Of a DNA stretch of 60,472 nt, positions 14,601 through 35,284 are shown in pieces. The first letter of the stretch is position 1, and the number at the start of each line of letters is the position of its first letter. A program made the position numbers and the translations under genes. Source of the stretch: a virus; the IMG/VR virus record IMGVR_UViG_3300026519_000014, positions 1-60,472 of that record; one strand, written 5' to 3'. A model generated the notes under the pieces. It did not search any database. It was not told the origin of the DNA and saw only the letters and a program-made list of their open reading frames with translations.

Positions 14601-17600
14601 AAGAGAGTTTAATAAAGCAAAATTAGCAGCAGCAGATTTTGCTTTAAACTATATGGCAGCCAATGCTAATTTTCAAGTACTTTATGCAGGAGATGCAGCA
14701 CAATATTATGTTGGGGAACCTACATTCAAAGAAAATATAAAAACTGAAGAAGGGGAGTTTAAAAAAGGAGATAAAATACCTGTAAATCATTCATTATATT
14801 ATACTACTATAGCTAAAAATACTTTTATTAATATAGGTAAAAGACTAACTCTTTTAGCAGGGCCTAGAAGAAGTCCTGTATTTATTGAAGGAAAAACCAC
14901 ATATAGACAAGGTTTTGTAGAAGATAAAAGAACTGCTTCTTTAGCAATAGATTATATAAGTTCTATTTATGAAGACAATCCTGAATTTATAGAAAAATAT
15001 AAAAATATAGTAGGTACCGATGCTGTAGAACTTATAACAGTATCTGAAAAAATAGAAATTCTTTATAGAGATGGAAAATTAGACAATACAGATTATAAAA
15101 GACTATTAGAAATTGCTAAAAAAGGAGGAGATTTTTCTTCTTCTGATTTAGGTAAACTTAAAGTATTTCAAGCTGATAAGCCATTATATGCAGGCAAAGC
15201 AGTAGAGCCTAATTCTTTAGTTGAAAGAAGAATATATATTAAATCTGCTGCTATTACTTTAATCCCACAATTTACCAGAGGACTTGAAATAGATAAATTA
15301 AGAGTTCTTATGGAAAATAAGAAAAATCCTGTAAATAGAATAGCTTTTTCTTCTGCTGTTAAAGTAGGAAATGTTAAAAACCCTTTAAATATATGGAATG
15401 AAGATGGCAGTATTAAGGAAAATCTAAGTTTTTCTGAAGATCAGATACTGACCTTAAATAGAAATGAGCATGGCATACAACAAGACATTCCTTATAAAGA
15501 AAAGGATAGTATAAAAAGAGTAGTTCAAGCTTCTAAATTGTCTTTTGTTAATCTGTTGAATAGAGATATTTTGGTAGATAGTAAAAAAATTAAAGGCAGA
15601 GAACTATATGAAAGATTTCAAAAAAATTGGGAATCCTTATATTCTTTAGCAAAAGAGGAGTTTTTTGAAGAATTAGAAGTAGATGTTTCTAAAGATGTTT
15701 GGATACCAAACAGTAAAAAATTAAGTCGCTATATTAAAAGAGAAGCTGAGCTTAGAAACCTTTCTTTACAAGATTTAGAAGGTTTAGAACTTAGAGAAGA
15801 TGGTACTTTTGAATTACCTTTATGGGCTAATGGAGCTAATAAACAGTTTGAAGCTCTTTTAAATTCACTTATTACTAATAAAATACTAGAACAATCTATT
15901 CCAGGCAAAGCTTATGTTTTAGCTTCTGAGGAAGGTTTTCAAAAACAGGTAAAAACTATAGAAGATGTACTAGAAGAACAAAACATTAAAGACATAGAAT
16001 CTTCTGGAATTGTATTTACTGAATTTTGGAATGGTAAAAGTTTAATGCCTTCTATAGAAGGTAGTAATAATCAAGTATTTATACCTTGGCCTTTTAAAGA
16101 TGTTCCTATGGAACATTATATAAAGGATGGTAAAATAGACATGAGTAGAATAGATGCTGATTTATTTACTATGTATGGTATGAGGATACCAAATCAAGGG
16201 CCTAATTCTACAGGAAATTTGGAAATAGCTGGATTTCTACCTGAAGTTATGGGCGATATTATTATAGCTCCCAGAGATTTTGTAACTCAAATGGGGAGTG
16301 ATTTTGATGTGGACAAACTTTATACTTACAGATATAATTATATAGTTACAGATAATGGAGACATACGAAGAATTAAAGAAGAATATTTAAATCCTGAAAA
16401 ATTAAAACTAAGATTAAGTAAAGCAGAAAAACGGCTAAATGAAATTATTCTGTTAGATTTAAAAAAAGACAGACAAAGAGAAAAAAATTTACTTTATATT
16501 CAAATAGAAAAGCTAAACAAATTGCTTGAACCTAATGCTTTAGCCAAATTAAAATTTCAGGATGATATAGTAAAAATACATAGGTTATTAAATGCAGACC
16601 CCTCTAATTTTGTACAAAGACAGATAAAAGCCCCTTTAGGAGAAGGCAGGTTAAAGGAATATTCAGATATTATAGAAAATTCAAAAGATTCTTCTTTTTT
16701 TAGTCCCTATTCTTCTATTTATCAAAGAAATAAATTTAAAAATGCTTCTTCTGGAAATAAAGCTATTGGTGTTTTTGCTATAGCAAATACTTTTAATGCT
16801 TCTGCACAAACTGTTGAAGGCCCTTTAAAAATAGTAGATGGTGATAAAGATTTATATGTAAGATTTGGAAATCAAGTTAGTTATGGAGTGTTAAATAATG
16901 AATTAGCATTAGATAATAAAACATATATTTCTGAGAATATTTCTAATTACCTTTCTGTTGCTGTAGACAATGAAAAAATACAAGCTCTTCATAATTTGAA
17001 CATTAATGATGTTACTTATGGTATAGTAAATTTATTAACCCAACTAGGATTTACTCATGATGTTATTAGTAGTTTTTTAGGTCAGGATATACTTTTTGAA
17101 TTGGTAAAAAAAGTAGAGGAATTTCAAGATAAAGGAGAATCTTCAATTTCTGCTTTAAACAAGGCTTTTAGTGTGCTAGAAAAAGATTCCAAATACTCTG
17201 AAAAAGTTTTTGATGCTTTAGATGAAGATAATAAAAATAAAATATTAAAAAAATATGCAGACAGTAGTAGCGCATTTTTATTTGAAGTTATAAAAAAAGG
17301 AGAAGACCATCCTGACTATAAAATCACCCAAAAAGCTATATTGAAAAAATTTAAATTTCTTAGTAAAAAAGCTGTTTCTTTACAAAATTTACAAAGAATA
17401 ACTAATATAGATTCTTCAGGGATAGGAAAAAACCTAATAGAGAGTAAAGTAAAAGAGGAAGCTTTTGTAGAAGCACTTACAGATAAAAATATTATAGGAG
17501 CTTCTAAGCTATTTGGAGAAATTTCTTATACACCTTTAAAAGGATACCAACAATTTGGAAATATTTACTTTAAGCCTACTTCTATTTCTGGATTTGCAGT

Positions 17601-20600
17601 TATCTATGGAGTTATTCCTAATAATAGGCTATGGAATCAATCCAGATATTTTCCTTATACAGATAAAGCAATTAATGATGTAGTAAAAACTATTATTGAT
17701 ATAAGCAATATTAGAGAATTTGATGAATATCAAAATGTTTCTATAGAAAGTAGAATATTTAATGCTATAAAAAGTTATTATTTTAGTAATCTTGGTGAAT
17801 TAGGGTTTGTAGATACTTCACTACAAAAAGACACCGGTAGATTAGTAAGATATAATTTACTTTCTGAAGAAGGTGTTCTTCAAAATATAATTGCAAAATA
17901 TAGTAATACTTCTTTGTTTATAAATAATCCTTTTTTAAATAAGCTTTCTATTAGAAAAAGGAAAGCTGGAACTCCAGGAAGTATTAATTTTTCTTCAAGA
18001 GATACAGATGTTGTAAGTAAACATAATATTTATGGAGGATTAATAAAACTGCTAAATTCTACTAAAGAACTTCCTGAGCAGATACAGATTAATAATGATA
18101 AAGTTAAACTTATCACTGAACAAGATTTAGCTAGAGCTTTAATAGTTTCTCAATATGCTACAGGAGGTATACAAAAATACACACAATTTTTAAGATATAT
18201 CCCATTAGATTATTTGAAAAAAATAGGATTTACAGAATCTGCTAGAAACTTAGACTTTGCAAAACTTCTTAATGAAGGTAGAGGTAATAATAAATTTCAA
18301 CTTCCCTATATGGTTATTCAATTTTTTCAGCATAATCCCTATTTACTTAATACCCCAGAAGTAAGTATAAGAGAATTTGTAACTAAAGATGCTGAAAAGG
18401 AAGAAGATATAACTAGATTTTCTGTTCCACTACCTTTAAATAAAGCAAAAATAGAAGACCCCACTCTATTAGACCCTATGGTTAAGTTAAAAGGAGAAAA
18501 TAAAGACCATGTTTTTCTTTTTGATGGGAATGAATATATAAGACTAGATAATCTGGGAAGTGTAGATTTTAATGAATATCAAAGTAAAGAAATAACCAGA
18601 AGTGTTATTTATAACAATATAGCAAAAGATAAAAAAGGGGTACCGGTATCTTATTATGATCAAGTAGCAGCTAATACCCCTAAAAAACCTATCATTAATA
18701 AGGCTGATCAACTAAACCACATCACATTAGACCAAAAATATGGTTTTAATGAGGCTGAGCCAACTATCTCTAAAACCTTAATGGCTATATCCAATAATGG
18801 CCCTACTGCTCACAGAGCTCTTGCAGAAGATTATTTGCAAGTGTTTAAAGACGGAGAATACAAATTAGTAATAGATAGAAACTTACCTGCTAAAGGAAGA
18901 CACATAAGAAGTGAAAAAACTGTATTTATTAATCCTGATTTACTAACAGGGGATGAGGATTATAGCAAAACTTTTTTACATGAGGTTACACATATGCTTA
19001 CAGTAGAAGTACTAGAAAATCCTGTTACAGAACAACAAAAGAAAGCCAAAGCAAGTTTAACAAGATTATTAAATGCTTACAGAAAAACTCTCAAATCAGG
19101 AGAACTGGAGTTAGTAAAGAAACAAGTTTCAGAAGCTAAAGAAAAAGGCGTTTCTCCTAAACTAACTGAAGAACAACTTGTAAGAGTATATCCTGCTATT
19201 AATTTAAAAGAATTTGTAGCTGGTTTTATGACTGATGTCAAAGTTCAAAATCATTTAAATAAAGTAGATTTTAATGAAAATACTACTTATGGACAAGAAT
19301 ATGAAAAAAGACTGTTAAAGATTTTAAATTCTATAAAAGGTTTTGAATTAACTTCTACTTCTGCTCAAGCTATAAGAGAAGTAATTGCTTTAATAGATTA
19401 TCAAGATGAAGTTAAATTAAATCCAGTAGTTTTAGCTAAAATGGAAAATTCTACTTCTAATAGTGTAGATGCAAACTCCAGAGTTAGAAAAAAATCTATT
19501 AAACATACTGAAGAAGATGTAGGCATAAAAAGTTCTATAGCACAGGCAGAGGCTAATTTCTTAGAAGACAATTATGAAAATATGATAACTTCTGCTATAA
19601 ATAAAGCTGTGGATAGAATGGCTCCTATTGATGAAAATAATATTCCGCCAGAACCCACTACTTTTGAAGATTTACCAGCAGCCACTAAAAAAGAAAAAGA
19701 CGAAGAAGCACCAATATCAGATTTAGTCCATCCTTCTATTAAAAATAAACAGGCTATTTTAAAAGCTTTAAATAAAAAAGTTAATAGGGACAAAAAAAGG
19801 ATGCATGATTCTACTGATCCTAAAGTAGGAGTTTATTATGAGAATAGAATAATAAGAACTAAAGAAAAAATAGCTGAAATAGAAGAACAAATTGCTGCTA
19901 TTACAGGAATGAATACTTATTCCACTACTTTAAAGATAGCTGAAGAAGATTTATCTTATGTAGATACTTTAGTTAGTAGTGATATAAGGCTTATTACTTC
20001 AGAAGATATGGAAATAGTGGATAGTATTATTACACTATGGAAAAATTTTAAAAAAGAAGAATTTGTTGAAAAAATTTATAGTTCTTTAGACACTGAAAAA
20101 GATTTTAACAATATAAAAAATAAAGCCGAATCTTTAGAGGATAAGTTACATGATATAGCTATAGAAAAGACCAAATCTTTTATTAAAAGAGAGTTGCCTA
20201 AAGCTACTTCTGAAGATATTAAAAATCTAATGGCTATATCTGATGATATAGGAGTAGCTTCTTCTTATATATATGACCTTTCGAGGGTAGATAATGTAAT
20301 AGCTCAAGCTATGTCCAAATCTATTTTAAGAACTAATGACTATATAACTGAAGAAGTTACTAAAGTAGCAGAAGAAATAGACCCTATTTTACAAAATGCT
20401 GAAAAAGCGTTAAAAAAGCTGGGTCTTACTTTTGATGTTTTTATGCAAAAAGATGAAAAAGATAGATATACTGGTAGAATAATAATGCCATACTCCCAGA
20501 AATTTTTTAATTTGCTTAAAGCTAATTCTGAAAAAGCCTTTAGCCCAGAGGCTAGTAAAGAAGATAGACAAGCATATAGAGAATGGAGAAAACTTACTCA

Positions 20601-23001
20601 AATAACAATAAATCCTTCTAAATTGGAAGATAAAAAATATGTTGAAACTCTAATTAAAGAGGTAGGAAATGAAAATATAGAATATATTAAAAAACAAGCT
20701 ATTAGAAGGCAGGAATACTATAATAAAGCTTTAGAAAGAGAGCAAATAAGAATAGATACTAATCCTGACTTATCTAAAGAAGAGAAGAAACAAGCTATTA
20801 AAAAATGGGCAGAAGAAAATAAATTTAAATATCAAATATCTATCCCAAGAAAAATAAATACCAGAGGAGAACCTACTGGGTTTTATGATAGCAAGTTTGA
20901 AATAATTCAAAATAACCCAGACTTAAAAGTATTTCATGAATATACAATAGATTTACTTTCTAAATTAGGTAAATATTCTACTAACAAAAGAACCCCTGTA
21001 AATAGTATTCCTTTAATGCAAAAGGAGTTTTGGGAGGCGGCTAAAGGGAAAGACAGTCAAGGTATTTTTAACCTTATGGCTGATGCCATGAAAAAAGGGT
21101 TGAGGGCTAAAGGTGCTTATGAAGATTATATTACAGAAATAACTTCTGGAAAAAGAACCCTTTCTAATAATTTTAATGAAGTTACTAAAAGACAGTTGGC
21201 TGATAGATTAGTAGTTAAAGAATTACAGTATAAGCAGAAAACAAATAAAAACCCTACTAAAACACAAATTAAAGAATGGAAAGCTGATATTATGGATGAG
21301 CTTACTAAAGAAAGCTCTTTAGACATTGGTAAAATATTAAAAACTTATGCTGCCACCGCTATTGCCTATAAGCATAAAAGTCAAGTAGAAACACCTTTAA
21401 GAATAGCTGAAAAATTATTAAAAGAAGTAAAAGCTGCTGAAAGAAGTTCTTCTGGAGCTATTATTAATGACTTGGTAAATAAAGGTATAGATGAACAAGG
21501 GCTTATCAATATTAATAACATGGTTACCAGTACTTTAAATCATTGGTTTGGTGTTAAAAAGCCTGAAAAAATAAACAAAAAAAGTAAAGTAAAATATACT
21601 TCCGAAGAGAAAAAAACCAAAATTAAATTAGATAAAATAATAGCTACAGCTAAGGAGAATATTGAAAAATTAAACAAAAGCTTAAAAAATGCTTCTATAA
21701 CAGAAGATAGATATATAAAAAAGATAGCTGTAGAACAAAATGCTATAGATACTGCTCAAAAACAATTAGATAAACTAGGAGGTGTGATTTCTAAAGAACG
21801 TATCTTTAAAGGTACCATGAGATATATGCAACTTTTAGGTATGGGTTGGAATGCTGTAGCTGGAATAGCTAATTTAGGTTTTGGGCTTATTTCAAATACT
21901 AATGAGGGAATAGGAGGAGAATACTATACTACAAAAGAATTTTTTAATGCTCTTGGGGATGTTATAAAAGGGACTTTATTTGGTATAAAAACTGAAGATG
22001 GTAAAAAACAATCTATTCTTATGAAAAGATGGGGAATCTTACAAAAATCTTCACAAGAAACTTTCAAAAGAAAAACAGCAACCAATAAGTTACTTAATTT
22101 TTTAAATCCTTATAAGATTCAAGATACTACTGAGTATCTTAATCAAGCTCCTATAATGGTATTAATGCAGAAAAAAACTCCTGTATTAGATTCTAAAGGA
22201 GAGCCTGTAGTAATAAATGGAACTAAAATAAATTTTTATAATGCTTATGATAAAGATGGAAATTGGAAAACAGGTATTTTAGGAGAAGAAAAAAACTATC
22301 AAAAACAGAAGGACGACCTTAGAATACTTATAGGAGATTTAATAGCCAGAAATCATGGTAATTATAATAATGAGGGCAGACATTTAATGGTGAAAGATAG
22401 TTTAATAGGGCAATCATTAACTCAATTTAGGACTTGGATGTTAGAGGGCATAGGAAACAGATTTAGAGAGGAGTATTTTGATAGAATTACAGGAACTATT
22501 AAAAAAGGTAGATATGTGACTATTTATGAAGATTGGGAGAGAGCAGCTAAATTATTATATAGTGCTAAAACATGGAAAGAGTTATCTATTGTAGATAGAG
22601 CTAATGTAAGAAAAACATTAGCAGATATAGGAATGCTATTATCTTTTATGGGGTTTGTTACTTTACTTAAAGGTGCAGCAGAAGATGAAGACGATGAAGA
22701 TAAATTAGCAGTATTGCATTTACTTATTAATATTGGTTTAAGGATGCAAACAGATATAGCTTTTTATGTTAATCCAATGGAAGCTGAAAGACTTACTCAA
22801 TCTACTATTCCTGTAGCATCTTTAGTTTCCAGAGCTTCAGGATTAACGCAAGCTATGTATAAATATATAATGGACGAAGATGAAATAACTAATGGAATAT
22901 ATGCAGGGGAAAGCAATTTATTACATAAAGGATTTAACTCTATACCATTTGGAAAAGCTATATTACAAGTTCATAAAACAGCAACAAGACCATTCAGATA
23001 A
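8602..23001 (+). CDS. Giant virion RNA polymerase-like protein with zincin protease domain
   Basis: 4799 residues in one frame. The N-terminal ~330 residues hold hydrophobic segments, including a Gly/Ala-rich stretch near residue 165. Residues 2567-2571 read DFDVD within GSDFDVDKLY, matching the metal-binding DxDxD loop of the single-chain crAss-like and YonO-type RNA polymerases. About 160 residues later the phrase GNKAIGVFAIANTFNA resembles another conserved segment of these proteins. Residues 3460-3464 read HEVTH, the HExxH motif of zincin metalloproteases. Long coiled and charged regions follow, and near the C-terminus (about 4690-4760) are membrane-like helices. By analogy with phage phi14:2 gp66 it would be ejected to transcribe early genes. 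Fusion with the zincin suggests self-processing or processing of virion partners. Polymerase assignment is fairly secure from motif and position; domain limits are not. Confidence 0.75.
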   Translation: MALTEEQVNAALNGEVKPASEASTEPKLTEEQVEAAMNSANILYGWGQGEQVNPDDFGFNLKTGDFDNFLYRAQDQGWGVQLGNAAARIVPNAALEIIGGVGSIFDFEDYLNQDNEVGNSLVRASNEGKEAINEAFPIYRERPGTSLDIGDSAWWFENGSGIVSSAAAFVGMGMGTGAVLSKGAQALQWVAKAGGMVRTAVRIRKASKLIIPGLNTLALNQAEGMLTATEIYDETLKRGIKQGLSQDEAKRIAAASASHSINVNRANILLNATSVAAITKGVNKGVTRQILKKEAMGRAVALESAQEYAEEVINLYAEKEGKRKADFDLLGKYYETKPTTWAERLSNTVFSIEGLEAGILGAVGGAAQTGFTHAGRNIAINGKSKNAELNERIQQQQSFISNLDGVLKSQGTKNFTTNSAGLDELRKSVEERNNLLALAEEYTKKGEEVPSKLATKILISGDAILTDQALANFQQGTTEYLESWYKDVQKATVEEAVAMGYTGEQLNENSPVHYSKMAERALTKIKEFEKIYQQHYAYKGLGSIMANRIAAKATIESIKEANIELDKLKTEAEEFNKTLPLYGNEFRVLVEDFDRVSKTGTPKAKRYITQAKKKRGLQPYLKAVERQKNIIKELKNLEKEYKKLISDEYQNKLKKIEEEIEKKEIEKQEKAVVKAKEDKDLAEIQDDTEDQAEAVNVPEASVNTPIEETSPEVEGHRGYVGPIVEISEEEAEKQAILEEIIGEVKRSYEEEIKKEVGISETEQREEIAEENAKYIEDIQESRDIAEGKSFDVKDQTTIKNNIVAIDEKLSSQNKTDNKASSVAYLAETILSKENTEIDPIVFNYNEVNVGTPVTLRVDTSYTGNVYYKGNEVPWQGLKSSLTEQELLEKTPIVIMVGDKTIGYVHDTEWFTLYNIGKGALEKSETEPSLKEKKIAEEKLAEEKERNRAIRKSVLEKGSINTTISYRGNGIIPTIEQGTKPVSEALPGIKIAVIKKNTLSDYEDLNILNRETITNGERVKDGYTVAIVPVNKNEVGEEQYIAYPLLRQKLNTKAKSSIVKATTILMKSLYYPKAISSEETKIADTIKELIDVDIRTIEGFEKYLTLFTHNTYPEGSGNLSQFMLTQNENKYAINVTSKGSAGVSFGKGGKQITKTTKNVIIPQMFKSNPDTYIEGLENIVEHLYANINDALLDADVTIPVITEENKVETLFSGKYTEYVKTYGLHTNATYHEIGTEENPKRVYTIQSVISYDDSFSGFIPKSNQNETVAATEKPDIDKETVLKEPFEPSEKVKKAPPGLEFMDDFDFTHLEDKNKDIESEELFAPYTGKTVSDYIIEGIPAHTQNLLIDNIIFNVLNTVENDDLVLSRVQEALSYLTEVKFPMIKSESWKLKELVRLRLQNLTNTVIQNEEESLDSTENKDEARSVEEKDQAWGIDILTINPKDSLSSRLKQLFSFIPLVNKEDGTPLRTKEGLIVFAGFDKTYEIVMSELSTNFDKDTPAPRTFDSMMDTLLAAKDIYTFLPFVVDRLKKAPRQLKNEFMVNADKHYTVMHHVWKKQTSDGKFYYNVLNDNANSRTLIIEQTWRNNNLQVSRISNNLLANGEVVEELKAEFDKWITKDKQIEDKKVLKWLSDMGITINQKTLDSFKEEDIYGLSYVKHFTTKEGIFKNIREALNSIKDGNELLETTLYRMSAFSRLAAQEGLNNSMYIPDSFRSGDSNIYGYQEQKWAVKRTSDLKYDEEELTRLAKNPITKNISWLKKLGKLDPSTGKFVIDKESRFYKNFSFGYVGLAALQEEGKFYANKKKLSELSSSAHEEVKKGFFENRALADKFGNRVVRFFFPTMSDKSTMFTLKVEPIKIAYDINGKLTKETIDALYDTILIPEINRMVNHIEGETNIKNYDQGAMMFYSVPELNNIPEIWNGTGSTRRLNLKVGRKGIEGDTVKKIIRENFEKHLNNLVEEQLKDWESLGLYNADTHVFRAGSEYKEYLDGLVYGEIGSSEREFNKAKLAAADFALNYMAANANFQVLYAGDAAQYYVGEPTFKENIKTEEGEFKKGDKIPVNHSLYYTTIAKNTFINIGKRLTLLAGPRRSPVFIEGKTTYRQGFVEDKRTASLAIDYISSIYEDNPEFIEKYKNIVGTDAVELITVSEKIEILYRDGKLDNTDYKRLLEIAKKGGDFSSSDLGKLKVFQADKPLYAGKAVEPNSLVERRIYIKSAAITLIPQFTRGLEIDKLRVLMENKKNPVNRIAFSSAVKVGNVKNPLNIWNEDGSIKENLSFSEDQILTLNRNEHGIQQDIPYKEKDSIKRVVQASKLSFVNLLNRDILVDSKKIKGRELYERFQKNWESLYSLAKEEFFEELEVDVSKDVWIPNSKKLSRYIKREAELRNLSLQDLEGLELREDGTFELPLWANGANKQFEALLNSLITNKILEQSIPGKAYVLASEEGFQKQVKTIEDVLEEQNIKDIESSGIVFTEFWNGKSLMPSIEGSNNQVFIPWPFKDVPMEHYIKDGKIDMSRIDADLFTMYGMRIPNQGPNSTGNLEIAGFLPEVMGDIIIAPRDFVTQMGSDFDVDKLYTYRYNYIVTDNGDIRRIKEEYLNPEKLKLRLSKAEKRLNEIILLDLKKDRQREKNLLYIQIEKLNKLLEPNALAKLKFQDDIVKIHRLLNADPSNFVQRQIKAPLGEGRLKEYSDIIENSKDSSFFSPYSSIYQRNKFKNASSGNKAIGVFAIANTFNASAQTVEGPLKIVDGDKDLYVRFGNQVSYGVLNNELALDNKTYISENISNYLSVAVDNEKIQALHNLNINDVTYGIVNLLTQLGFTHDVISSFLGQDILFELVKKVEEFQDKGESSISALNKAFSVLEKDSKYSEKVFDALDEDNKNKILKKYADSSSAFLFEVIKKGEDHPDYKITQKAILKKFKFLSKKAVSLQNLQRITNIDSSGIGKNLIESKVKEEAFVEALTDKNIIGASKLFGEISYTPLKGYQQFGNIYFKPTSISGFAVIYGVIPNNRLWNQSRYFPYTDKAINDVVKTIIDISNIREFDEYQNVSIESRIFNAIKSYYFSNLGELGFVDTSLQKDTGRLVRYNLLSEEGVLQNIIAKYSNTSLFINNPFLNKLSIRKRKAGTPGSINFSSRDTDVVSKHNIYGGLIKLLNSTKELPEQIQINNDKVKLITEQDLARALIVSQYATGGIQKYTQFLRYIPLDYLKKIGFTESARNLDFAKLLNEGRGNNKFQLPYMVIQFFQHNPYLLNTPEVSIREFVTKDAEKEEDITRFSVPLPLNKAKIEDPTLLDPMVKLKGENKDHVFLFDGNEYIRLDNLGSVDFNEYQSKEITRSVIYNNIAKDKKGVPVSYYDQVAANTPKKPIINKADQLNHITLDQKYGFNEAEPTISKTLMAISNNGPTAHRALAEDYLQVFKDGEYKLVIDRNLPAKGRHIRSEKTVFINPDLLTGDEDYSKTFLHEVTHMLTVEVLENPVTEQQKKAKASLTRLLNAYRKTLKSGELELVKKQVSEAKEKGVSPKLTEEQLVRVYPAINLKEFVAGFMTDVKVQNHLNKVDFNENTTYGQEYEKRLLKILNSIKGFELTSTSAQAIREVIALIDYQDEVKLNPVVLAKMENSTSNSVDANSRVRKKSIKHTEEDVGIKSSIAQAEANFLEDNYENMITSAINKAVDRMAPIDENNIPPEPTTFEDLPAATKKEKDEEAPISDLVHPSIKNKQAILKALNKKVNRDKKRMHDSTDPKVGVYYENRIIRTKEKIAEIEEQIAAITGMNTYSTTLKIAEEDLSYVDTLVSSDIRLITSEDMEIVDSIITLWKNFKKEEFVEKIYSSLDTEKDFNNIKNKAESLEDKLHDIAIEKTKSFIKRELPKATSEDIKNLMAISDDIGVASSYIYDLSRVDNVIAQAMSKSILRTNDYITEEVTKVAEEIDPILQNAEKALKKLGLTFDVFMQKDEKDRYTGRIIMPYSQKFFNLLKANSEKAFSPEASKEDRQAYREWRKLTQITINPSKLEDKKYVETLIKEVGNENIEYIKKQAIRRQEYYNKALEREQIRIDTNPDLSKEEKKQAIKKWAEENKFKYQISIPRKINTRGEPTGFYDSKFEIIQNNPDLKVFHEYTIDLLSKLGKYSTNKRTPVNSIPLMQKEFWEAAKGKDSQGIFNLMADAMKKGLRAKGAYEDYITEITSGKRTLSNNFNEVTKRQLADRLVVKELQYKQKTNKNPTKTQIKEWKADIMDELTKESSLDIGKILKTYAATAIAYKHKSQVETPLRIAEKLLKEVKAAERSSSGAIINDLVNKGIDEQGLININNMVTSTLNHWFGVKKPEKINKKSKVKYTSEEKKTKIKLDKIIATAKENIEKLNKSLKNASITEDRYIKKIAVEQNAIDTAQKQLDKLGGVISKERIFKGTMRYMQLLGMGWNAVAGIANLGFGLISNTNEGIGGEYYTTKEFFNALGDVIKGTLFGIKTEDGKKQSILMKRWGILQKSSQETFKRKTATNKLLNFLNPYKIQDTTEYLNQAPIMVLMQKKTPVLDSKGEPVVINGTKINFYNAYDKDGNWKTGILGEEKNYQKQKDDLRILIGDLIARNHGNYNNEGRHLMVKDSLIGQSLTQFRTWMLEGIGNRFREEYFDRITGTIKKGRYVTIYEDWERAAKLLYSAKTWKELSIVDRANVRKTLADIGMLLSFMGFVTLLKGAAEDEDDEDKLAVLHLLINIGLRMQTDIAFYVNPMEAERLTQSTIPVASLVSRASGLTQAMYKYIMDEDEITNGIYAGESNLLHKGFNSIPFGKAILQVHKTATRPFR

Positions 23002-27834: not shown

Positions 27835-28632
27835 TTAATAAAATACTAATGCCCAAGGAATATTTTGAAACTTTGTATTATCATAATATTCATAATATCC
27901 TGTCTCATAACTGCCCATTCTTTGATTTCCTAATTGATGTGGTTTTAAAGGTCTGCTAAAATGACCATAAATAGCAATAGAAGATTCAGGCCCTCCTTCT
28001 AAATAAACTGCTCTATAGATTTTTAGCTCTTTGTGGTTTAAAAGAATATCTATAAAATTATGCATAGTATAGGGTTCTCTACTATGAATGAATAATACAT
28101 AGCCATCTGTAGTAACAGCAAGCATTGCTACTGACCATTTTTTTTGGTCTATTTGCCATCTGTTTCTTTTACCTTCTTCTATAATTGTTCTTATATTTTG
28201 ACTTATATTAGGCCATTTCATAATAGCTTCCAAACCGTCTTTATACTTATCTAAAATAAGTAAGGTGTCTTTATTCCAAACTATAAAACCATTATAATCT
28301 TTCCTTATTTCAGGCTGAATAACTTTATTGTTAATTTTAGTGTATCCCATAGGCAGGTATCCTAATCCCCACATATTAAGATTAATACCTCCATCGTACC
28401 ACTTAGCCCATTCAGGAAGAGTTTTAATGTTATCTTGATTTCCAACAGCTTTAAACGTATATTCTTTTTGATCTATTTTAAAAACCCATATATTTTTATC
28501 TACTGTTGTTTTACTTATCCCTTCTTCGGGATAAGTCCATAAAAGCTGAGCATGAATCATTGTACTCCATAAAAGCAATCCTATAGCAAATGTTAAAGCT
28601 ATTAGTAGTTGTTTAATTTGTCTTTGTGTCAT
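27835..28632 (-). CDS. Secreted phosphodiester-glycosidase-like (NAGPA family) protein
   Basis: 265 residues. Residues 1-28 form a signal peptide: a basic start, a hydrophobic core LLIALTFAIGLLLW and likely cleavage after MIHA. The mature part has YDGGINLNMWG, LPMGYTKINNK, KKWSVAMLAVTTDGYVLF and YRAVYLEGGPESSIAIYG, the order of motifs in the NAGPA/phosphodiester glycosidase family, including the late GG motif (LEGGPES in place of LDGGGSS). It would act in the periplasm or on the surface, on cell-wall or capsular phosphodiesters, or on receptors. The ATG overlaps the RusA stop (ATGA). Family fit is good; substrate unknown. Confidence 0.65.
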   Translation of the reverse strand: MTQRQIKQLLIALTFAIGLLLWSTMIHAQLLWTYPEEGISKTTVDKNIWVFKIDQKEYTFKAVGNQDNIKTLPEWAKWYDGGINLNMWGLGYLPMGYTKINNKVIQPEIRKDYNGFIVWNKDTLLILDKYKDGLEAIMKWPNISQNIRTIIEEGKRNRWQIDQKKWSVAMLAVTTDGYVLFIHSREPYTMHNFIDILLNHKELKIYRAVYLEGGPESSIAIYGHFSRPLKPHQLGNQRMGSYETGYYEYYDNTKFQNIPWALVFY

Positions 28633-29066
28633 TTTTTTAAATTTTTAATTAATTTTTTAGTAATAGGAACTATCCATATTCCAGGATTATCTTTGTTGTA
28701 AGTGTAGTATTTACCTTTTAGTTTAAAAGGCACAGGAATTATTTCATCAGAATTATCGTCTTTTATATATTCATATTCTACCATTAAATCCTGAACTCCC
28801 TGAACTAAGTTTACCCAATCTTGTTTATGTTTAGTTCCTCTTATAAAATGAATACCAATTTTAAAAGGCTTTTCTTCTTCTCTAACAAGAGATAAAAAAT
28901 CTTTTTTCTTCAGTAACCACTCTATTTTTGAAATTTTCTTGTATTTCATAACAGTCTTAGAATGAATAAGACGAGGTTTTTGCCCTTTCTTGATTATCAT
29001 TCTTTTACTATTTTTAAAACTAGGGAAATTACCTTTTATAAATATTCCTTGTGCTTTAATTTTCAT
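28629..29066 (-). CDS. rusA: RusA-like Holliday junction resolvase
   Basis: 145 residues, starting MKIKAQGIFIKGNFPS inside the end of the upstream gene (11-bp overlap). The C-terminal half shows the RusA pattern: a beta strand FKIGIHF, then DWVNLVQGVQDLM, then IKDDNSDEI. The acidic residues correspond to the RusA metal-binding aspartates; the usual first DxDN is reduced to QDWVN. It would resolve branched DNA during replication or before packaging. Confidence 0.75.
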   Translation of the reverse strand: MKIKAQGIFIKGNFPSFKNSKRMIIKKGQKPRLIHSKTVMKYKKISKIEWLLKKKDFLSLVREEEKPFKIGIHFIRGTKHKQDWVNLVQGVQDLMVEYEYIKDDNSDEIIPVPFKLKGKYYTYNKDNPGIWIVPITKKLIKNLKK

Positions 29067-30777
29067 AATGTAATACTTCCTTCTCTGTAAAATTATAATA
29101 TGTAGATAGAGCAACATCTTGACCAGAAAATAGCAAAGGATTAGGCATATTTTCAATGTGTTTTATTACTTTCTCCAAAGAGATTGGAGAATCAGATAAA
29201 ACCTCTCCTTTTAAAATATGCTCTTTTATTATTTCTACTTTATCATAAATAGAATCAATTTTTGCTTTAAATAATAAAGTATTATAAACTATAAAAAGAA
29301 CATGAATATCCCAAATATAAACTAAATCATATTTATCTGCCTTTTTTCTATTGTTCAATAATTCACTAAAAGTTATTAATAAAATATTAGTATCTTCAAA
29401 AAGGTTTTCAACATATGTAATTTCACATAAAGAAAGTGTAGTTAGATATCCATTTAGTTTATTGTCATAAAACACATAACCTTTAGTCTTATCATCCCAT
29501 ACTTTGTCTGGATATTTTTCATTTAATTTATGTTTTATAGCCTTAAAGTTTTTTATCTCATAAACTATATTGCTGTCTATAGTTGGACTTTCCCAGTATT
29601 CTACATAAGTAGATAAAGAAGAATTAGTTAATTTGCTTTCTATAATAACAATACAATCATCAAAATTAGAAATAGGGGTTTCTATACTTTCTTCTTCAAG
29701 TTCTTTTAAAGTAGAAAAAACAACAAGCAATGCATTTGGAATTTGTACTATTTCTTCAGTAATCCACTGCCCTTCAAAATAAGTTTGTTTTATGCTTCTG
29801 CCATTAGCTCCTATTTTAAGCAATCTTTGCATACCTTCTACTAATTCTATACCTTTATAATAGGTCTTATCTACATATTCGATAAAATTATATAGTGTTA
29901 TAAAAGCACTTCTACGTTTAAGCCAAGCATTATAAATTATTTGAGAATTTAAACCTATTTCAATCTCTTTTTTTTCCTTTATTTCTTGTTTTTCATGGGC
30001 TAAAAAAGAAAGTAAAACGGCTTCCATTTCTTTTTTCTTGTCTTCCCTTTTTTTGGCTTTCGGAGACCATACTGATCTATCTATTTGAGTATAAGAGAGC
30101 TTTTCTAATATCTTATCTGTATAGACAATTTCAATATTTTTCTTTTCAAAGGGAGTAATAAATCTGTCTTTAAATGCTTTAGAATATCCTCTGGAGTTAG
30201 TTACTAAAGGAAAGTCTTTTTCTATAAAAACAGTAAACCATTCACTTTTTACATTTCTACCTGAAATTAGCGCTTTTTGTAGTTCTTTTATATATTTTGT
30301 TTTAAAGGTAAAGACATATAAAAAACCAAGCTTATCCTTTTGTTTATAATATATTAATGTTTTTGCTATACCTCTAAACTCTATATTATCTACTCTAAAC
30401 GGAGTTCCATTAAAAGCTTTATGATAAGAAAATTTAGTCAAATATTTTACATTAGGAAAAGCTATGTTAGATCTAAGATGAAAAACAAGATCATCTAACC
30501 TTAATACTTTTTCAATAAATTCTTTTTTAGGGCTTAGATAATCAGAAAAAGGATATCTTCTGTTGTAATAACTAGTAAATTTAAAGTTTAAGTATTTATT
30601 GATATTTATTGAATCACAACAACTACTACTTAAAAACAAATTATGTGTATATATTAAATGTTCAATAGAATCAAATGTAGTTAAAATAGGGATATATTCA
30701 GATTTTTTCATACTGAAATTAAATTTTCCATCTATTTCTACTTCATTAAATAATCTTTGTGCTCTATGACTTATCAT
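29056..30777 (-). CDS. 573-residue protein of the ubiquitin-like cassette, function unknown
   Basis: Start at MISHRAQRLFNEVEID, 4 bp after the E1 stop with an A-rich leader. Two alpha/beta regions flank a charged coiled segment (KKREDKKKEMEAVLLSF). A stretch with FEGQWITEEIVQIPNALLVV has a weak resemblance to PRTRC protein B. It is always in frame and co-directional with the E1/JAMM/E2 genes and RusA, so it could be a conjugation target, adaptor or a large E2/E3-like partner. No catalytic motif is identifiable. Confidence 0.5.
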   Translation of the reverse strand: MISHRAQRLFNEVEIDGKFNFSMKKSEYIPILTTFDSIEHLIYTHNLFLSSSCCDSININKYLNFKFTSYYNRRYPFSDYLSPKKEFIEKVLRLDDLVFHLRSNIAFPNVKYLTKFSYHKAFNGTPFRVDNIEFRGIAKTLIYYKQKDKLGFLYVFTFKTKYIKELQKALISGRNVKSEWFTVFIEKDFPLVTNSRGYSKAFKDRFITPFEKKNIEIVYTDKILEKLSYTQIDRSVWSPKAKKREDKKKEMEAVLLSFLAHEKQEIKEKKEIEIGLNSQIIYNAWLKRRSAFITLYNFIEYVDKTYYKGIELVEGMQRLLKIGANGRSIKQTYFEGQWITEEIVQIPNALLVVFSTLKELEEESIETPISNFDDCIVIIESKLTNSSLSTYVEYWESPTIDSNIVYEIKNFKAIKHKLNEKYPDKVWDDKTKGYVFYDNKLNGYLTTLSLCEITYVENLFEDTNILLITFSELLNNRKKADKYDLVYIWDIHVLFIVYNTLLFKAKIDSIYDKVEIIKEHILKGEVLSDSPISLEKVIKHIENMPNPLLFSGQDVALSTYYNFTEKEVLHYEN

Positions 30778-30781
30778 TTTT

Positions 30782-31456
30782 TTACTTTTTAATTTCAATT
30801 AAAAACAGATTACCTTCTTCCCTAATGTGAAAAGGTAGACTATAAAACATATGCTTAGAATAAAAATTAGTCAAGCCGTGTACCATTCTTCCTGCACAAA
30901 TATGAGCCCAATGATTAGTTTGTTTGATGGTACATCCTACTTCAGGGATTTCACTATCCTCAAATAAAGTAGCTTCATAAGCTTCTTCCTGTCCTTTTTG
31001 GACAAAAAAAACCTCATATTGGTCTAGCAGCAATCTTGCCTCAATAAGCAATTCTCTATCTTCTTTCTTTTTCCAGATTTCAAATAAATCTTTTCTTGCC
31101 TGCATATTATCAAAACAAGAAAATATTACAGTTTCAGGAATATCGGTCTCTTTATCTACTTTTTCATTATAGGGGTATATTTTTGCAGTACCGAGGTCCA
31201 TTGCTATCTCAGTAATTGCATTTACTTTAAACTTGCCTAATTGATGTATAGTAAATGTTTGACTTGCCAAATTTACTTTTTCTACAATATCGTAGTCATA
31301 GATATAAATAGAAGACACTATTCTTGAAAGCATAGGAACTAAAGCAGAACCTATTCCTCCTATTCCACAAACAGCTACTGATTTTTTTACTAGTTTAGAG
31401 AAAAAAGGAGCATCTCTAAATCTACTGTGTCTTGTATTAATTTTATTTTCTAACAT
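30782..31456 (-). CDS. ThiF/E1-like ubiquitin-activating enzyme
   Basis: 224 residues, start at MLENKINTRHSR with an A-rich leader, 11 bp after the JAMM stop. A Rossmann fold begins SVAVCGIGGIGSALV (nucleotide-binding GxGGxG, residues 31-36). It is followed by YDYDIVEKVNLASQ (acid and Asn that hold ATP in E1 proteins), GKFKV, then FSCFDNMQAR. Cys175 in EVGCTI is the candidate catalytic cysteine. Length is that of minimal prokaryotic E1s. It adenylates the C-terminus of a Ubl protein; the presumed partner genes are directly upstream. Confidence 0.82.
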   Translation of the reverse strand: MLENKINTRHSRFRDAPFFSKLVKKSVAVCGIGGIGSALVPMLSRIVSSIYIYDYDIVEKVNLASQTFTIHQLGKFKVNAITEIAMDLGTAKIYPYNEKVDKETDIPETVIFSCFDNMQARKDLFEIWKKKEDRELLIEARLLLDQYEVFFVQKGQEEAYEATLFEDSEIPEVGCTIKQTNHWAHICAGRMVHGLTNFYSKHMFYSLPFHIREEGNLFLIEIKK

Positions 31457-31467
31457 TTTTTTAATTT

Positions 31468-32412
31468 TTAAGCTTCTTTCCAAATAGTTTCTAATAATTC
31501 TTCTACATTATCGCCTATTCCTTCCATTTCAGCATCTTCTGCATAAAGCATAAAATTTTCTTTTTGCCAAGGGGTAGCTAATTTAAATTTTTCTACAAAA
31601 TTTAAAATAATTTTATTCGCTTCAACAAAAGATAGAGCATTAAAATAGTCTATTGTTTCTGTAATTACTACATTTCCATTAAACTCTCCATGTAAAAAAT
31701 CTCTTAGAAATATCTTACCTTGTTTTTTTCTATACTCTAGTTGCATATCGAAAGAATCTATATTCTTAGCAGTATATGTATTAAAATTTGGAGTATAGGT
31801 TTTAGGTTTACTTACTATGTAATCTACTCTGTCTTTTAAAGTTTTAGGTATGGTAATGTGAGTTTTTGGCATTTCTATCTTAAAATTAATAACTACCATA
31901 ACTTCTTTTTTAGGTAGTTGCCATTTAGCTCCTTTAAATTTCTTGGGGTGTATTTTTTGACTGGGTAGTTCAGCTTGAAAAGCTAATTTAGCATCAAACT
32001 CCAGATCATTATTAGAAATTAAAGAAAAGTAGTACTCTTCATAAATGTTTATCTTATCTTTTAAATCTTCAATATCAGTGGAAGAATGGAAAACAGCCAT
32101 ATTATTATGTGAGTGATGCTTTCCTGTCCTATAAATAGTATTATTAAAAGGGTCTAATTCTTGTTTTTTATCATATAACTGAATAATGCTTTCATCAGAA
32201 TCAAATTCAGTATAACTTACATCCCCTTGGTCCATAAGATGAATATAGTAAGGAATTATTTTAAATGTTGATAATTTAGAAGGTACCCCTTCTATAGCAT
32301 AAAATAAAATACCTGACCATTCTATACTTGATATTTTATTGTTAATAAATTTCACTTGGTTTAAAAAATCCTCTGTAATTACTACAGTAGCTTTTTCTTT
32401 GATTTCTATCAT
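31468..32412 (-). CDS. JAMM/MPN-family metalloprotease (JAB-like deubiquitinase)
   Basis: 314 residues. A complete JAMM signature is visible: Glu31 (IEWSG), then H100-S-H102, seven residues, Ser110 and Asp113 (KHHSHNNMAVFHSSTD). These coordinate the catalytic zinc in Rpn11, AMSH and the bacterial Cap3 and PRTRC-A proteins. The C-terminal half (about 190-314) is a separate unassigned region. In prokaryotic Ubl operons this enzyme trims Ubl precursors or removes conjugates. Neighbouring E1 and E2 genes support that role. Confidence 0.85.
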   Translation of the reverse strand: MIEIKEKATVVITEDFLNQVKFINNKISSIEWSGILFYAIEGVPSKLSTFKIIPYYIHLMDQGDVSYTEFDSDESIIQLYDKKQELDPFNNTIYRTGKHHSHNNMAVFHSSTDIEDLKDKINIYEEYYFSLISNNDLEFDAKLAFQAELPSQKIHPKKFKGAKWQLPKKEVMVVINFKIEMPKTHITIPKTLKDRVDYIVSKPKTYTPNFNTYTAKNIDSFDMQLEYRKKQGKIFLRDFLHGEFNGNVVITETIDYFNALSFVEANKIILNFVEKFKLATPWQKENFMLYAEDAEMEGIGDNVEELLETIWKEA

Positions 32413-32423
32413 TGTTCTGTTTT

Positions 32424-33398
32424 TTAGTTTGTTTTGTCTGTTAAATATATGTGTAAGCGGTTTCCTATTATTTCTATAATTATTCTAAATAATGCTGGAT
32501 GTACAACTCTAACACCTTTTTCTATTTTTATATTATTGTTAGAACCAGTAAAATTTATTTTAGGAAATCTGTTTTTTCCTTTAAAAAAGAAACTTCCAGT
32601 TAAGTTTATATTTTCTGCATAATTTAATATTTCAGAATAGTCTTCATTTTCTACATAATAAGTATTGTTGTATTTAATTGCAGGGTTAACTATAAGGCTA
32701 TAGTAAGGGTCTTCTGAATATATTTTTTCCCATTCTTCAAGAAGTTCTAATGAGTTAAGTATAGTCACACTGTCTAAATTAAGCACAAAATATAACTTTT
32801 TTATAAAGTACTCTGGTACAGTAGTGATAAAATGTTCAGCTACTTCCTGTTTATCTACAGAAATATAACTAGTCATATCTACCGAAGTGTATTCATTAAT
32901 AGCATCTTGTACTTCTGTCATTTCAATATAAGGCCCTCCTTCTAAAGATTCCCATCTTATAAAATCATTTATGAAGTTTAATAAGATAATAAAATTATCT
33001 ATAGTAAATTGTAAATTTAAACTAGCTAAAACTACACTAATACCGTCTGACCCTAAACAAAAATCTGTAAAAGATATGCGTACATTTTGTTCTTCTTCTT
33101 CTTCTTCTATATCTAGTGTAGGTAAATGAGAGTGAATATATCCTTTATATATTTCTACAGGAGAGAAAGATAATCGTATTCCTTTTAAAGTATTGTAGAA
33201 TATGCTTACATTTCTATTACTATCATATCTCCAACCTAGTTGTATGTATAGATCAGTAATAGTATGTTCATCGTTTTTACTGTTTGTAATAGTTATCTTA
33301 GGAAAATGAATAATACATCCACCATCTTCTTTTATGTCTACATACTTTTCCCCAAATATCTGATAAAGTTTTTCTTTGATTTTTTCTTCGTCACTCAT
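32424..33398 (-). CDS. E2-like (UBC-fold) conjugating protein
   Basis: 324 residues. The first 150 have the strand order of a UBC fold: CIIHFPKITI, TDLYIQLGWRY, GIRLSF, then KGYIHSHLP, and SFTDFCLGSDGI with Cys114. A final helix (NFIILLNFINDFIRW) closes it. The H-x-H about 25 residues before a CLG cysteine is the arrangement of divergent prokaryotic E2s. An acidic run lies between them. Residues 160-324 are a C-terminal extension of unknown role. Assignment rests on this pattern and on adjacency to JAMM and E1. Confidence 0.6.
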   Translation of the reverse strand: MSDEEKIKEKLYQIFGEKYVDIKEDGGCIIHFPKITITNSKNDEHTITDLYIQLGWRYDSNRNVSIFYNTLKGIRLSFSPVEIYKGYIHSHLPTLDIEEEEEEQNVRISFTDFCLGSDGISVVLASLNLQFTIDNFIILLNFINDFIRWESLEGGPYIEMTEVQDAINEYTSVDMTSYISVDKQEVAEHFITTVPEYFIKKLYFVLNLDSVTILNSLELLEEWEKIYSEDPYYSLIVNPAIKYNNTYYVENEDYSEILNYAENINLTGSFFFKGKNRFPKINFTGSNNNIKIEKGVRVVHPALFRIIIEIIGNRLHIYLTDKTN

Positions 33399-33411
33399 AA
33401 TATTTTAACTT

Positions 33412-33440
33412 AAAAAAGGGCTGCTATAATAGCAGCCCTT
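33412..33440 (-). terminator. Intrinsic terminator between the Ubl and E2-like genes
   Basis: GGGCTGCTAT at 33418-33427 and ATAGCAGCCC at 33429-33438 form a perfect 10-bp stem. Read leftward it is followed by TTTTTT. It lies after the Ubl stop and before the E2-like ATG, so it would raise Ubl expression over the enzymes if readthrough is partial. Confidence 0.8.
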
Positions 33441-33471
33441 AACTAACTTACATATAACTAAAACCTATTTT

Positions 33472-34008
33472 TTAATTCCAAAAAGAATCTTCTTCAGGAG
33501 TAACGCCAGAAGACAATCTCTTTTCTAAAAAGGAAACTCTTTTTTCAAGTTTTTTCAATTTGGTTTCTAAGTTTAAGGATTTGTTTGATGTAGAAGAAAC
33601 AACAGAAATAGTTTCTTTTACTGTTTTTTCTTTCTTTTTTGTAGTGTTTTTATTATAGAAAGAATCTAAGGCATCAATACAAGCTTGTTTACCATTAGGA
33701 GCAAATCCTGTAATTTTCTTACAGTAAGTTCTAAGTTCAGAAAAATTTGCTTTGTGGTAATTAGCTTTTGTTATAGTTCCTGATTTATTTTTATCAGTAC
33801 TTACTATAAGTTGTAAATTTTCCATTGGTAATTCTGCAGAAGCACTACTGTAATGATGGTTAGTTTTTCTGTCTCTTACTTTAGTGTTTTCAAAACTTAT
33901 GTTTAAAGTTTCTTCTAACTCTTTTTGCAAAACTCCCCAAGTAGTTGCATTACTTTGCATTTCTTTAGGGGCTGCTGCTCCTGGTAATGAAATTTGTACT
34001 CTTCTCAT
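33472..34008 (-). CDS. Ubiquitin-like/beta-grasp protein with SAP-like and coiled-coil parts
   Basis: 178 residues. Residues 1-85 fit a beta-grasp: strand VQISLPG, helix WGVLQKELEETL, strands around KVRDRKTNHHY and ENLQLIVST. Next comes a SAP-like helix-loop-helix (NFSELRTYCKKITGFAPNGK), a Lys/Ser/Thr linker and a coiled coil ending near residue 167. There is no C-terminal Gly-Gly, so the Ubl domain would have to be released by cleavage or act in non-covalent form. The Ubl assignment is inferred from this pattern and from the E2, JAMM and E1 genes that follow. Confidence 0.5.
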   Translation of the reverse strand: MRRVQISLPGAAAPKEMQSNATTWGVLQKELEETLNISFENTKVRDRKTNHHYSSASAELPMENLQLIVSTDKNKSGTITKANYHKANFSELRTYCKKITGFAPNGKQACIDALDSFYNKNTTKKKEKTVKETISVVSSTSNKSLNLETKLKKLEKRVSFLEKRLSSGVTPEEDSFWN

Positions 34009-34034: not shown

Positions 34035-34307
34035 TTATTTTAATTTATTTAAGTGTTCTTGGATTTTGTAAATTAGTACACCTAATTCTCTTCTTTCTAA
34101 AGTATCTTCTTTAATAGAGTTTCTATTATTTTTTAAAATAATAACTACTTCATTTAGAAAAGAAAAAGCATCCTTACTCCATAATGAGTGTTTATCATCT
34201 TCCAAAGCTTTTGTTATTTCTTCAGAAACAGTATTAATAACTTTGTCACTAAGATTAAACTCATGTTCTTCTAAAACCTCAACAATAATATCTTTGGTGT
34301 TTTTCAT
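34035..34307 (-). CDS. Uncharacterised 90-residue helical protein
   Basis: Entirely predicted helix, acidic front and Lys-rich tail, no motif. It overlaps the primase stop by 4 bp (ATGA) and precedes the Ubl gene, so it belongs to the primase operon. Unknown function. Confidence 0.55.
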   Translation of the reverse strand: MKNTKDIIVEVLEEHEFNLSDKVINTVSEEITKALEDDKHSLWSKDAFSFLNEVVIILKNNRNSIKEDTLERRELGVLIYKIQEHLNKLK

Positions 34308-35284
34308 TCTAATAGGTTTAAAAGTATTTTTTTAGCTTTAACTAAACCTTCTCCTTTAACAAAATCACTTATATCTTTATATCCTGTAGAAATAGGTAAT
34401 TCTATTTTAGGATAAGGATATAAATGAGCATTATGGCGTAAATCATTATCAAAGAATACTACTATTTTGCTATATTTGGCTTCTATTTTATTTAAGATAG
34501 CCCTGGTTATTAATGTAGATTCTGATTTTGGTGAAATAGCCTCAAAACCTAACTCATGTAATACCATTACATCTTTCAAAGATTTAGTAATGATAAGTAA
34601 GTTTTTGTTTTGTTTAAGTTGTAATAAACCTTCTACATAATTACGAGGATAGTTATTAATAAATTTATACTTTTTTTCAAAAGGAGAATAAATTTTATAA
34701 TACTTACCTATTCTATATGCAAAAGACAAACTCTTAGGCTTAACTGGAATATTGTTCCATAATAAATAATCTACTGAAAAAACACTATATTTTTTTAGTG
34801 TAGATAAACTTATTTTAAAACTATTCCAAAAAGCTAAGTCTTTATTTGTAAAAGATTTTATTTTAACTTTTAATTTCTTTTTTTTCTTGATGGGTCTACT
34901 TCTTACAGAGAGTTTATATTTAGCAGTAGTGTTGGTTAATCCAAAATCATTTGCTATTTTTTTTAAAGCTTCTTTTTCTGTAATAGAAAATAAAGAAGCT
35001 ACAAAAAATACAATGTCCCCTGTTTTATTATTATTACCATAGTCTGTGAACATAAGTGTTCCACTTGAATTATAATATAGTCTAAAAGAAGCATTAGTAT
35101 CTGTATCCCTTAGTACAGAAATAATATTTTCTCCTATTTTTATATTTATATTTCCTAATATTTGTTCTATATAATAAGAATAAACAGTAAATTCATCAAG
35201 AATAGAAAACATAGAAAATCTGCTTAATCCTAATCTAGCTGTAACTAGATCATAGGTATTAATTAGATTTTCTTTGTTACACAT
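34304..35284 (-). CDS. DnaG-like primase with TOPRIM domain
   Basis: 326 residues. The N-terminal third keeps the CHC2 zinc-domain layout (FRLYYNSSGTLMFTDYGN, GDIVFFVASLF) but lacks the zinc cysteines. After a basic linker comes a TOPRIM fold: LLIITKSLKDVMVLHELG near 215-235 and VVFFDNDLRH near 275. The usual catalytic Glu of TOPRIM is replaced by Lys in ITKSLKD, a variant I associate with phage primases. It would prime DNA synthesis for the family A polymerase with the DnaB-like helicase encoded nearby. Confidence 0.75.
   Translation of the reverse strand: MCNKENLINTYDLVTARLGLSRFSMFSILDEFTVYSYYIEQILGNINIKIGENIISVLRDTDTNASFRLYYNSSGTLMFTDYGNNNKTGDIVFFVASLFSITEKEALKKIANDFGLTNTTAKYKLSVRSRPIKKKKKLKVKIKSFTNKDLAFWNSFKISLSTLKKYSVFSVDYLLWNNIPVKPKSLSFAYRIGKYYKIYSPFEKKYKFINNYPRNYVEGLLQLKQNKNLLIITKSLKDVMVLHELGFEAISPKSESTLITRAILNKIEAKYSKIVVFFDNDLRHNAHLYPYPKIELPISTGYKDISDFVKGEGLVKAKKILLNLLE

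Follow-up and report, generated by a model that had tools for sequence, protein, structure and literature searches.

Can a bacteriophage carry its own genes for attaching a ubiquitin-like (Ubl) modifier to proteins and for removing it again? The question is raised by a 60,472-nucleotide stretch of viral DNA (IMG/VR record IMGVR_UViG_3300026519_000014, hereafter the window), in which four leftward genes between positions 30,782 and 34,008 had been predicted to encode a Ubl protein, an E2-like conjugating enzyme, a JAMM protease and an E1-like activating enzyme. All four are real, contiguous open reading frames (ORFs) at the predicted positions, and the analyses described below indicate that the cassette is quite probably a complete phage-encoded system for Ubl conjugation and deconjugation. 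Its components and the residues considered here are as follows.

33472-34008, minus strand: Ubl candidate, 178 residues; beta-grasp domain at residues 1-72, K-S-G77 closing the domain, followed by a helical/coiled-coil extension of 101 residues
33778-33780, minus strand: Gly77 codon of the Ubl; predicted mature C-terminus and predicted JAMM cleavage point
32424-33398, minus strand: E2-like (UBC-type) candidate, 324 residues; His91 and Cys114 predicted catalytic; second, C-terminal domain from about residue 180
33057-33059, minus strand: Cys114 codon of the E2 candidate; predicted catalytic cysteine in the motif FCLG
31468-32412, minus strand: JAMM/MPN+ metalloprotease, 314 residues; predicted Ubl maturation and deconjugation enzyme
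30782-31483, minus strand: E1-like adenylating enzyme (ThiF family), 233 residues from TTG or 224 from the ATG at 31456, the likely start
30932-30934, minus strand: Cys184 codon of the E1 (Cys175 counted from the ATG); predicted catalytic

Conservation of the four-gene cassette

An alignment-based scan of IMG/VR identified 188 relatives of the E1, from crAss-like and other phages; the best 80 were fetched, and the addition of eight GenBank phages and of the window itself brought the set to 89 loci. The relatives are mostly 20-40% identical; scanning viral contigs with the E1 or E2 sequence of the window alone found nothing. The profiles recognized the complete gene set, ordered Ubl-E2-JAMM-E1, in 86 of the 89 loci, which excludes a chance arrangement. 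Two of the three misses lie at contig ends, and the third (L013) encodes an 81-residue Ubl that ends in KAG-N. The order is thus present in all 87 loci that are not ended by a contig edge, including crAss001 (gp79-gp76) and Flavobacterium phage FpV4, which confirms it in other crAss-like genomes, where it had been suggested to look.

Among GenBank phages, relatives of the E1 and of the JAMM protease were each found in 74 records with identical organism counts, among them crAss001, Kolpuevirus, the Fpv phages and Dulem virus 41. Whole-genome profile searches detected neither protein in five crAss-like genomes of the Intestiviridae and Suoliviridae, and the primase neighborhood in four of these five contains no such cassette.

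The ubiquitin-like modifier

The Ubl candidate has no convincing database family match, including none to Prok_Ub in Pfam, and BLAST found no phage relatives, which were recovered by position and profiles. An AlphaFold2 model calculated from a 50-member alignment consists of a beta-beta-alpha-beta-beta domain with a predicted local distance difference test (pLDDT) score of 95-98, a flexible stretch around Gly77, and a helical extension. Comparison of this model with the PDB using Foldseek returned ubiquitin, NEDD8, SUMO, ISG15, and archaeal and bacterial Ubl proteins at probability 1.00, and the matches at that probability are mostly ubiquitin-fold proteins. The modeling thus confirms a predicted ubiquitin (beta-grasp) fold for the Ubl domain.

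Gly77 is the sole invariant residue of the Ubl family (74 of 74 sequences) and occurs in the context K-S-G or a variant thereof. The Ubl is a small free-standing protein that ends 1-5 residues beyond this Gly in 17 phages (16 profile-recognized loci and L013, which the profile missed), with endings that include KSG-K, KAG-A, KSG-F, KSG-R and KAG-N. The other Ubls continue for about 20 to more than 200 residues after the same Gly. Many of the phage Ubls are single domains of 72-83 residues, and that of the window has one beta-grasp domain followed by helices. Because tails of such variable length begin at one Gly, this residue appears to mark the functional end of the modifier, a pattern that is characteristic of ubiquitin and SUMO precursors.

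The E1 and JAMM enzymes

The E1 candidate matches the ThiF family in Pfam (PF00899, 1e-16), and a profile built from nine members aligned in the PDB with UBA5, UBA1, the SUMO and NEDD8 E1s, MccB, MoeB and eukaryotic E1s. Across 77 distinct relatives, the nucleotide-binding residues Gly40 and Gly42 are invariant, as are Asp65, Asn71, Lys86, Arg130 and the candidate catalytic Cys184; the last of these is the cysteine originally nominated as Cys175, renumbered from the TTG codon. In NCBIfam, the nearest models are those for ThiS adenylyltransferases, with scores of 71 bits (cut-off 159) and 55 bits (cut-off 152). PRTRC ThiF can be aligned with the phage E1 from end to end, and the conserved cysteines then coincide (HHalign, 98.6%). 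The phage-type E1 also occurs on two short contigs from bacterial metagenome-assembled genomes (L090 and L091, assigned to Clostridium and Spirochaetia), which are probably stray phage DNA binned with bacteria.

The JAMM protease carries the complete motif that had been ascribed to it, composed of Glu31, His100-x-His102, seven intervening residues, and Ser110-x-x-Asp113. Glu31, His100 and His102 are conserved in 78 of 80 sequences, and Ser110 and Asp113 in all 80. The best matches of its profile among solved structures are CSN5 and archaeal JAMM1, both weak, and the profile aligns with PRTRC protein A (HHalign, 79%), with which it shares the motif HSH...FFSxTD.

The candidate E2

His91, Cys114, Gly116 and Pro156 of the fourth protein are invariant in 77 of 77 sequences. 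The family motif consists of H-[SP]-H, usually 12-18 residues, and F-C-x-G, followed by helices and W-E-S-L-E-G-x-P. The HxH...CLG signature on which the original prediction had relied is therefore only partly retained: the second His, Cys114 and Gly116 are fixed, but the first position is mostly His and the middle one is Ser (73 sequences) or Pro (4 sequences, giving HPH). An AlphaFold2 model has pLDDT values mostly above 90 over residues 1-150 and places a helix, strands, a His loop, a Cys loop and helices in an order that fits a UBC domain, with a second domain following. Based on this order of secondary-structure elements, the motif, and the gene context, 32424-33398 probably encodes an E2. 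The protein also matches phrog_15310 (1e-20), a family of unknown function. We also considered whether HSH might be the remnant of a second, degenerate JAMM site; this was ruled out, as only the second His is invariant, no matching Glu or SxxD is present, and the HPH variant occurs.

Judged from these alignments, all four cassette genes are under strong constraint. Of the findings that would have contradicted the original prediction, neither the lack of a beta-grasp domain in the modifier nor the loss of active-site residues in the homologues was observed.

Genomic context and the fifth cassette protein

The cassette is flanked by the following genes.

29056-30798, minus strand: fifth cassette protein (partner), just downstream of the E1; 580 residues from TTG, 573 from ATG
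28629-29066, minus strand: RusA-like Holliday junction resolvase (phrog_1682, 3e-12)
34304-35284, minus strand: DNA primase, upstream neighbor outside the cassette (phrog_12622, 5e-32)

The 573-residue partner and RusA are thus situated after the E1 as first described. Other replication genes of phage type in the window encode Sak4, a DnaB-like helicase, a primase and a DNA polymerase. A 4,799-residue ORF (8602-23001, plus strand) matches phrog_16227 (1.5e-98), the crAss-like virion RNA polymerase/structural type, and 138 GenBank records (RNA polymerase/structural), chiefly from crAss-like and Flavobacterium Fpv-type phages. On the strength of these matches and of the phage-type replication genes, the window is a fragment of a crAss-like phage, as had been supposed, with the Flavobacterium Fpv type as its nearest annotated relatives.

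Of the 84 loci in which the upstream side of the cassette could be assessed, 83 have a primase gene there; on the downstream side, 50 of 62 have an exonuclease gene. In many phages (L003-L009 and others), a uracil-DNA glycosylase gene flanks the cassette, downstream in 34 of 62 loci and upstream in 25. Adjoining RusA on the replication strand of the window is a gene at 27835-28632 (minus strand), the product of which has a hydrophobic N-terminus and a match to the NAGPA phosphodiester glycosidase family (PF09992, 1.4e-7) that is unusual for a phage.

A fifth protein is encoded directly downstream of the E1 in most loci. That of the window has no BLAST relatives, but HHalign matches a segment of it (residues 155-273) to the protein encoded after the E1 in 17 other loci (93%), and several clusters of fifth proteins are linked by HHalign only. 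By sequence comparison, this gene evolves far faster than its four neighbors.

Relationship to known Ubl systems

The closest parallel is with the PRTRC cassettes of plasmids. Those that were fetched have the full order ParB-E-C(Ubl)-F-B(E2)-A(JAMM)-ThiF(E1), of which the segment C-(F)-B-A-ThiF matches the phage gene order. Both Ubls end in K-x-G or x-K-G, followed by 0-5 further residues or by an extension; both systems have the HSH...FFSxTD form of the JAMM motif and CxG at the E2 cysteine, and both are carried by mobile replicons, close to genes for replication or partition. PRTRC protein C of a Xanthomonas hortorum plasmid (L102:1261-1656) has a long extension after TKG, a variation in tail length like that seen in the phages. 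The phage cassette, however, has no ParB, E or F gene: no ParB family was found among the scanned window proteins, and the constant upstream neighbor is the primase. In addition, the score of the phage E1 is 37 bits where the PRTRC model requires 144.75, the phage Ubl has no match to Prok_Ub and the phage E2 none to Prok-E2_D, and HHalign gave no signal between the phage Ubl and PRTRC protein C, for which reason we do not claim homology of the two modifiers. Searches for Prok-E2_D in Spirochaetota and in pMOL30 returned nothing, and named PRTRC plasmids were then used for the comparison. The proposed parallel with PRTRC is consequently borne out for gene order, E1 and JAMM, at scores below the PRTRC family thresholds.

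Among bacterial systems, BilABCD likewise has its Ubl, E2, JAMM and E1 as separate proteins, but BilA has two tandem Ubl domains where the phage Ubl has one, and the phage genes are part of a replication module rather than of a bacterial defense operon. The E1, E2 and JAMM activities are also found in the cyclic-oligonucleotide-based anti-phage signaling system (CBASS) with Cap2/Cap3 and in operon types 6a-6c of Iyer et al. (2006), and the E1s are related by profile; E2 and E1 are fused in Cap2-like proteins, whereas they are separate in the phages, which have no nucleotidyltransferase. A similar Ubl, JAB, E1 and E2 set is shown in operon row 6d of the same study (Iyer et al., 2006; PMC1779556), the E2s of which have no His before the Cys and one after it, unlike the conserved His that precedes the Cys in the phage E2. 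Phages lambda and T1 encode a tail-assembly Ubl protein (TAPI) adjoining the JAMM-bearing TAPK, but these belong to the tail module and have no E1 or E2, in contrast to the four components in the replication module of the crAss-like phages. By the tests run, the phage system appears to work like PRTRC and BilABCD without being a member of either.

Proposed mechanism and alternative explanations

From the observed genes and their order, the protein families, the predicted Ubl fold, and the conservation and distribution of the cassette, we infer the identity of the E2, every catalytic step and the targets as follows. The JAMM protease would cut the Ubl precursor behind its invariant K-S-G, so that either a 1-5 residue tail or the long helical extension is lost. 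The E1 would adenylate the Ubl Gly with ATP and then take the Ubl onto Cys184. Cys114 of the E2 would receive the Ubl next, for final attachment to a lysine of a target protein. The fast-evolving fifth protein is a possible target adaptor, and the JAMM protease would also detach the Ubl from modified targets. Given the location of the cassette in the replication module, with primase, resolvase and exonuclease genes close by, proteins that act on phage or host DNA would be the likeliest targets; it is the fixed gene position that suggests a role in replication.

Several observations weigh against a complete conjugation system, and most concern the E2. The proposed UBC fold fits the order of elements, but Foldseek found no significant UBC match for the E2 model in the PDB; Atg10 and RWD-type CENP-O/P chains are within its top 50 hits at E values above 0.2 and were not used as evidence. 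The protein has no Pfam or NCBIfam match (including to Prok-E2_D), and profile comparison with human E2 sequences gave no signal. Its HHalign match to PRTRC-B (Prok-E2_D) is weak, yet better than that of every control. Sets of E1, Ubl and JAMM without an E2 also occur in sulfur-carrier pathways. Lastly, no E3 ligase, substrate or conjugate was seen.

The main biochemical alternative is accordingly sulfur transfer, in which the Ubl would be a ThiS/MoaD-like thiocarboxylate donor, the JAMM protease would detach its tail, the E1 would be a ThiF, and the fourth protein would be the enzyme that accepts the sulfur and thereby modifies a nucleotide, tRNA or DNA base. JAMM trimming of short sulfur-carrier tails is known (QbsE/QbsD), ThiF also employs a conserved Cys, and NCBIfam places the E1 nearest to ThiS-adenylyltransferase models. 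The E1 nevertheless scores far under the cut-offs of those models, the long extensions on many of the Ubls are atypical of sulfur carriers, and none of the genes beside the cassette in annotated records was recognized as encoding a cysteine desulfurase, a rhodanese or a known acceptor enzyme. The choice depends on the fourth protein being an E2 or not; given its UBC-like element order and PRTRC-B-like CxG motif, we regard sulfur transfer as improbable.

Two further alternatives concern the purpose of the cassette. It might act against other phages in the manner of BilABCD, tagging the virion proteins of competitors, a proposal that differs in purpose and not in biochemistry. The same four activities are present, the fast divergence seen in the fifth protein would be in keeping with an arms race, and a passage of PMC12135933 cites Bil as hindering phage assembly through tail modification. 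We consider such superinfection exclusion unlikely, since throughout the lineage the cassette holds a fixed place in the replication module, unlike accessory defense genes, and has a single Ubl domain where BilA has two. Alternatively, the cassette, and especially its JAMM protease, could strip the Ubl tags of host systems (Bil, CBASS Cap2/Cap3) or compete with host E1 and E2 enzymes. Host defenses of this type exist and the protease has all of its catalytic residues intact, but an anti-Ubl protease alone would need no Ubl, E1 and E2 of its own, all with conserved catalytic residues, making counter-defense very improbable.

Returning to conjugation and deconjugation, we tentatively suggest that a large part of the crAss-like phages, comprising the Steigviridae, the Flavobacterium Fpv-type phages and many environmental relatives, may run a SUMO-like reversible modification as a core part of their DNA replication program, with their own modifier, E1, E2, isopeptidase and fast-evolving target-selecting subunit.

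Annotation and implications

In GenBank, the E1 is labeled 'thiamine biosynthesis protein' in L002, L006 and other crAss-like and Flavobacterium phages, and cassette proteins are otherwise labeled as metalloprotease-domain or hypothetical proteins. The thiamine label is widespread and misleading, and could pass for that of a metabolic gene. Because databases give the E1 this name, the system is hidden. Neither ThiF nor ubiquitin is mentioned in the text of the crAss001 genome paper or of the 2021 survey of crAss-like phages, and no description of this system was found in the open-access literature searched, which excludes most subscription papers and preprints, so that earlier recognition is possible.

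Bacterial Ubl conjugation is known mainly as an anti-phage defense and from an unexplained plasmid cassette. Here, a whole Ubl set is a nearly constant component of the replication module in a phage lineage that is abundant in the human gut and includes the cultivable crAss001. If the assignment is correct, these phages would offer a tractable system for studying the function of Ubl conjugation in a mobile element, and would bear both on the role of PRTRC and on the movement of such systems between phages, plasmids and defense islands. Protein tagging may be a means by which these phages control replication or combat rivals.

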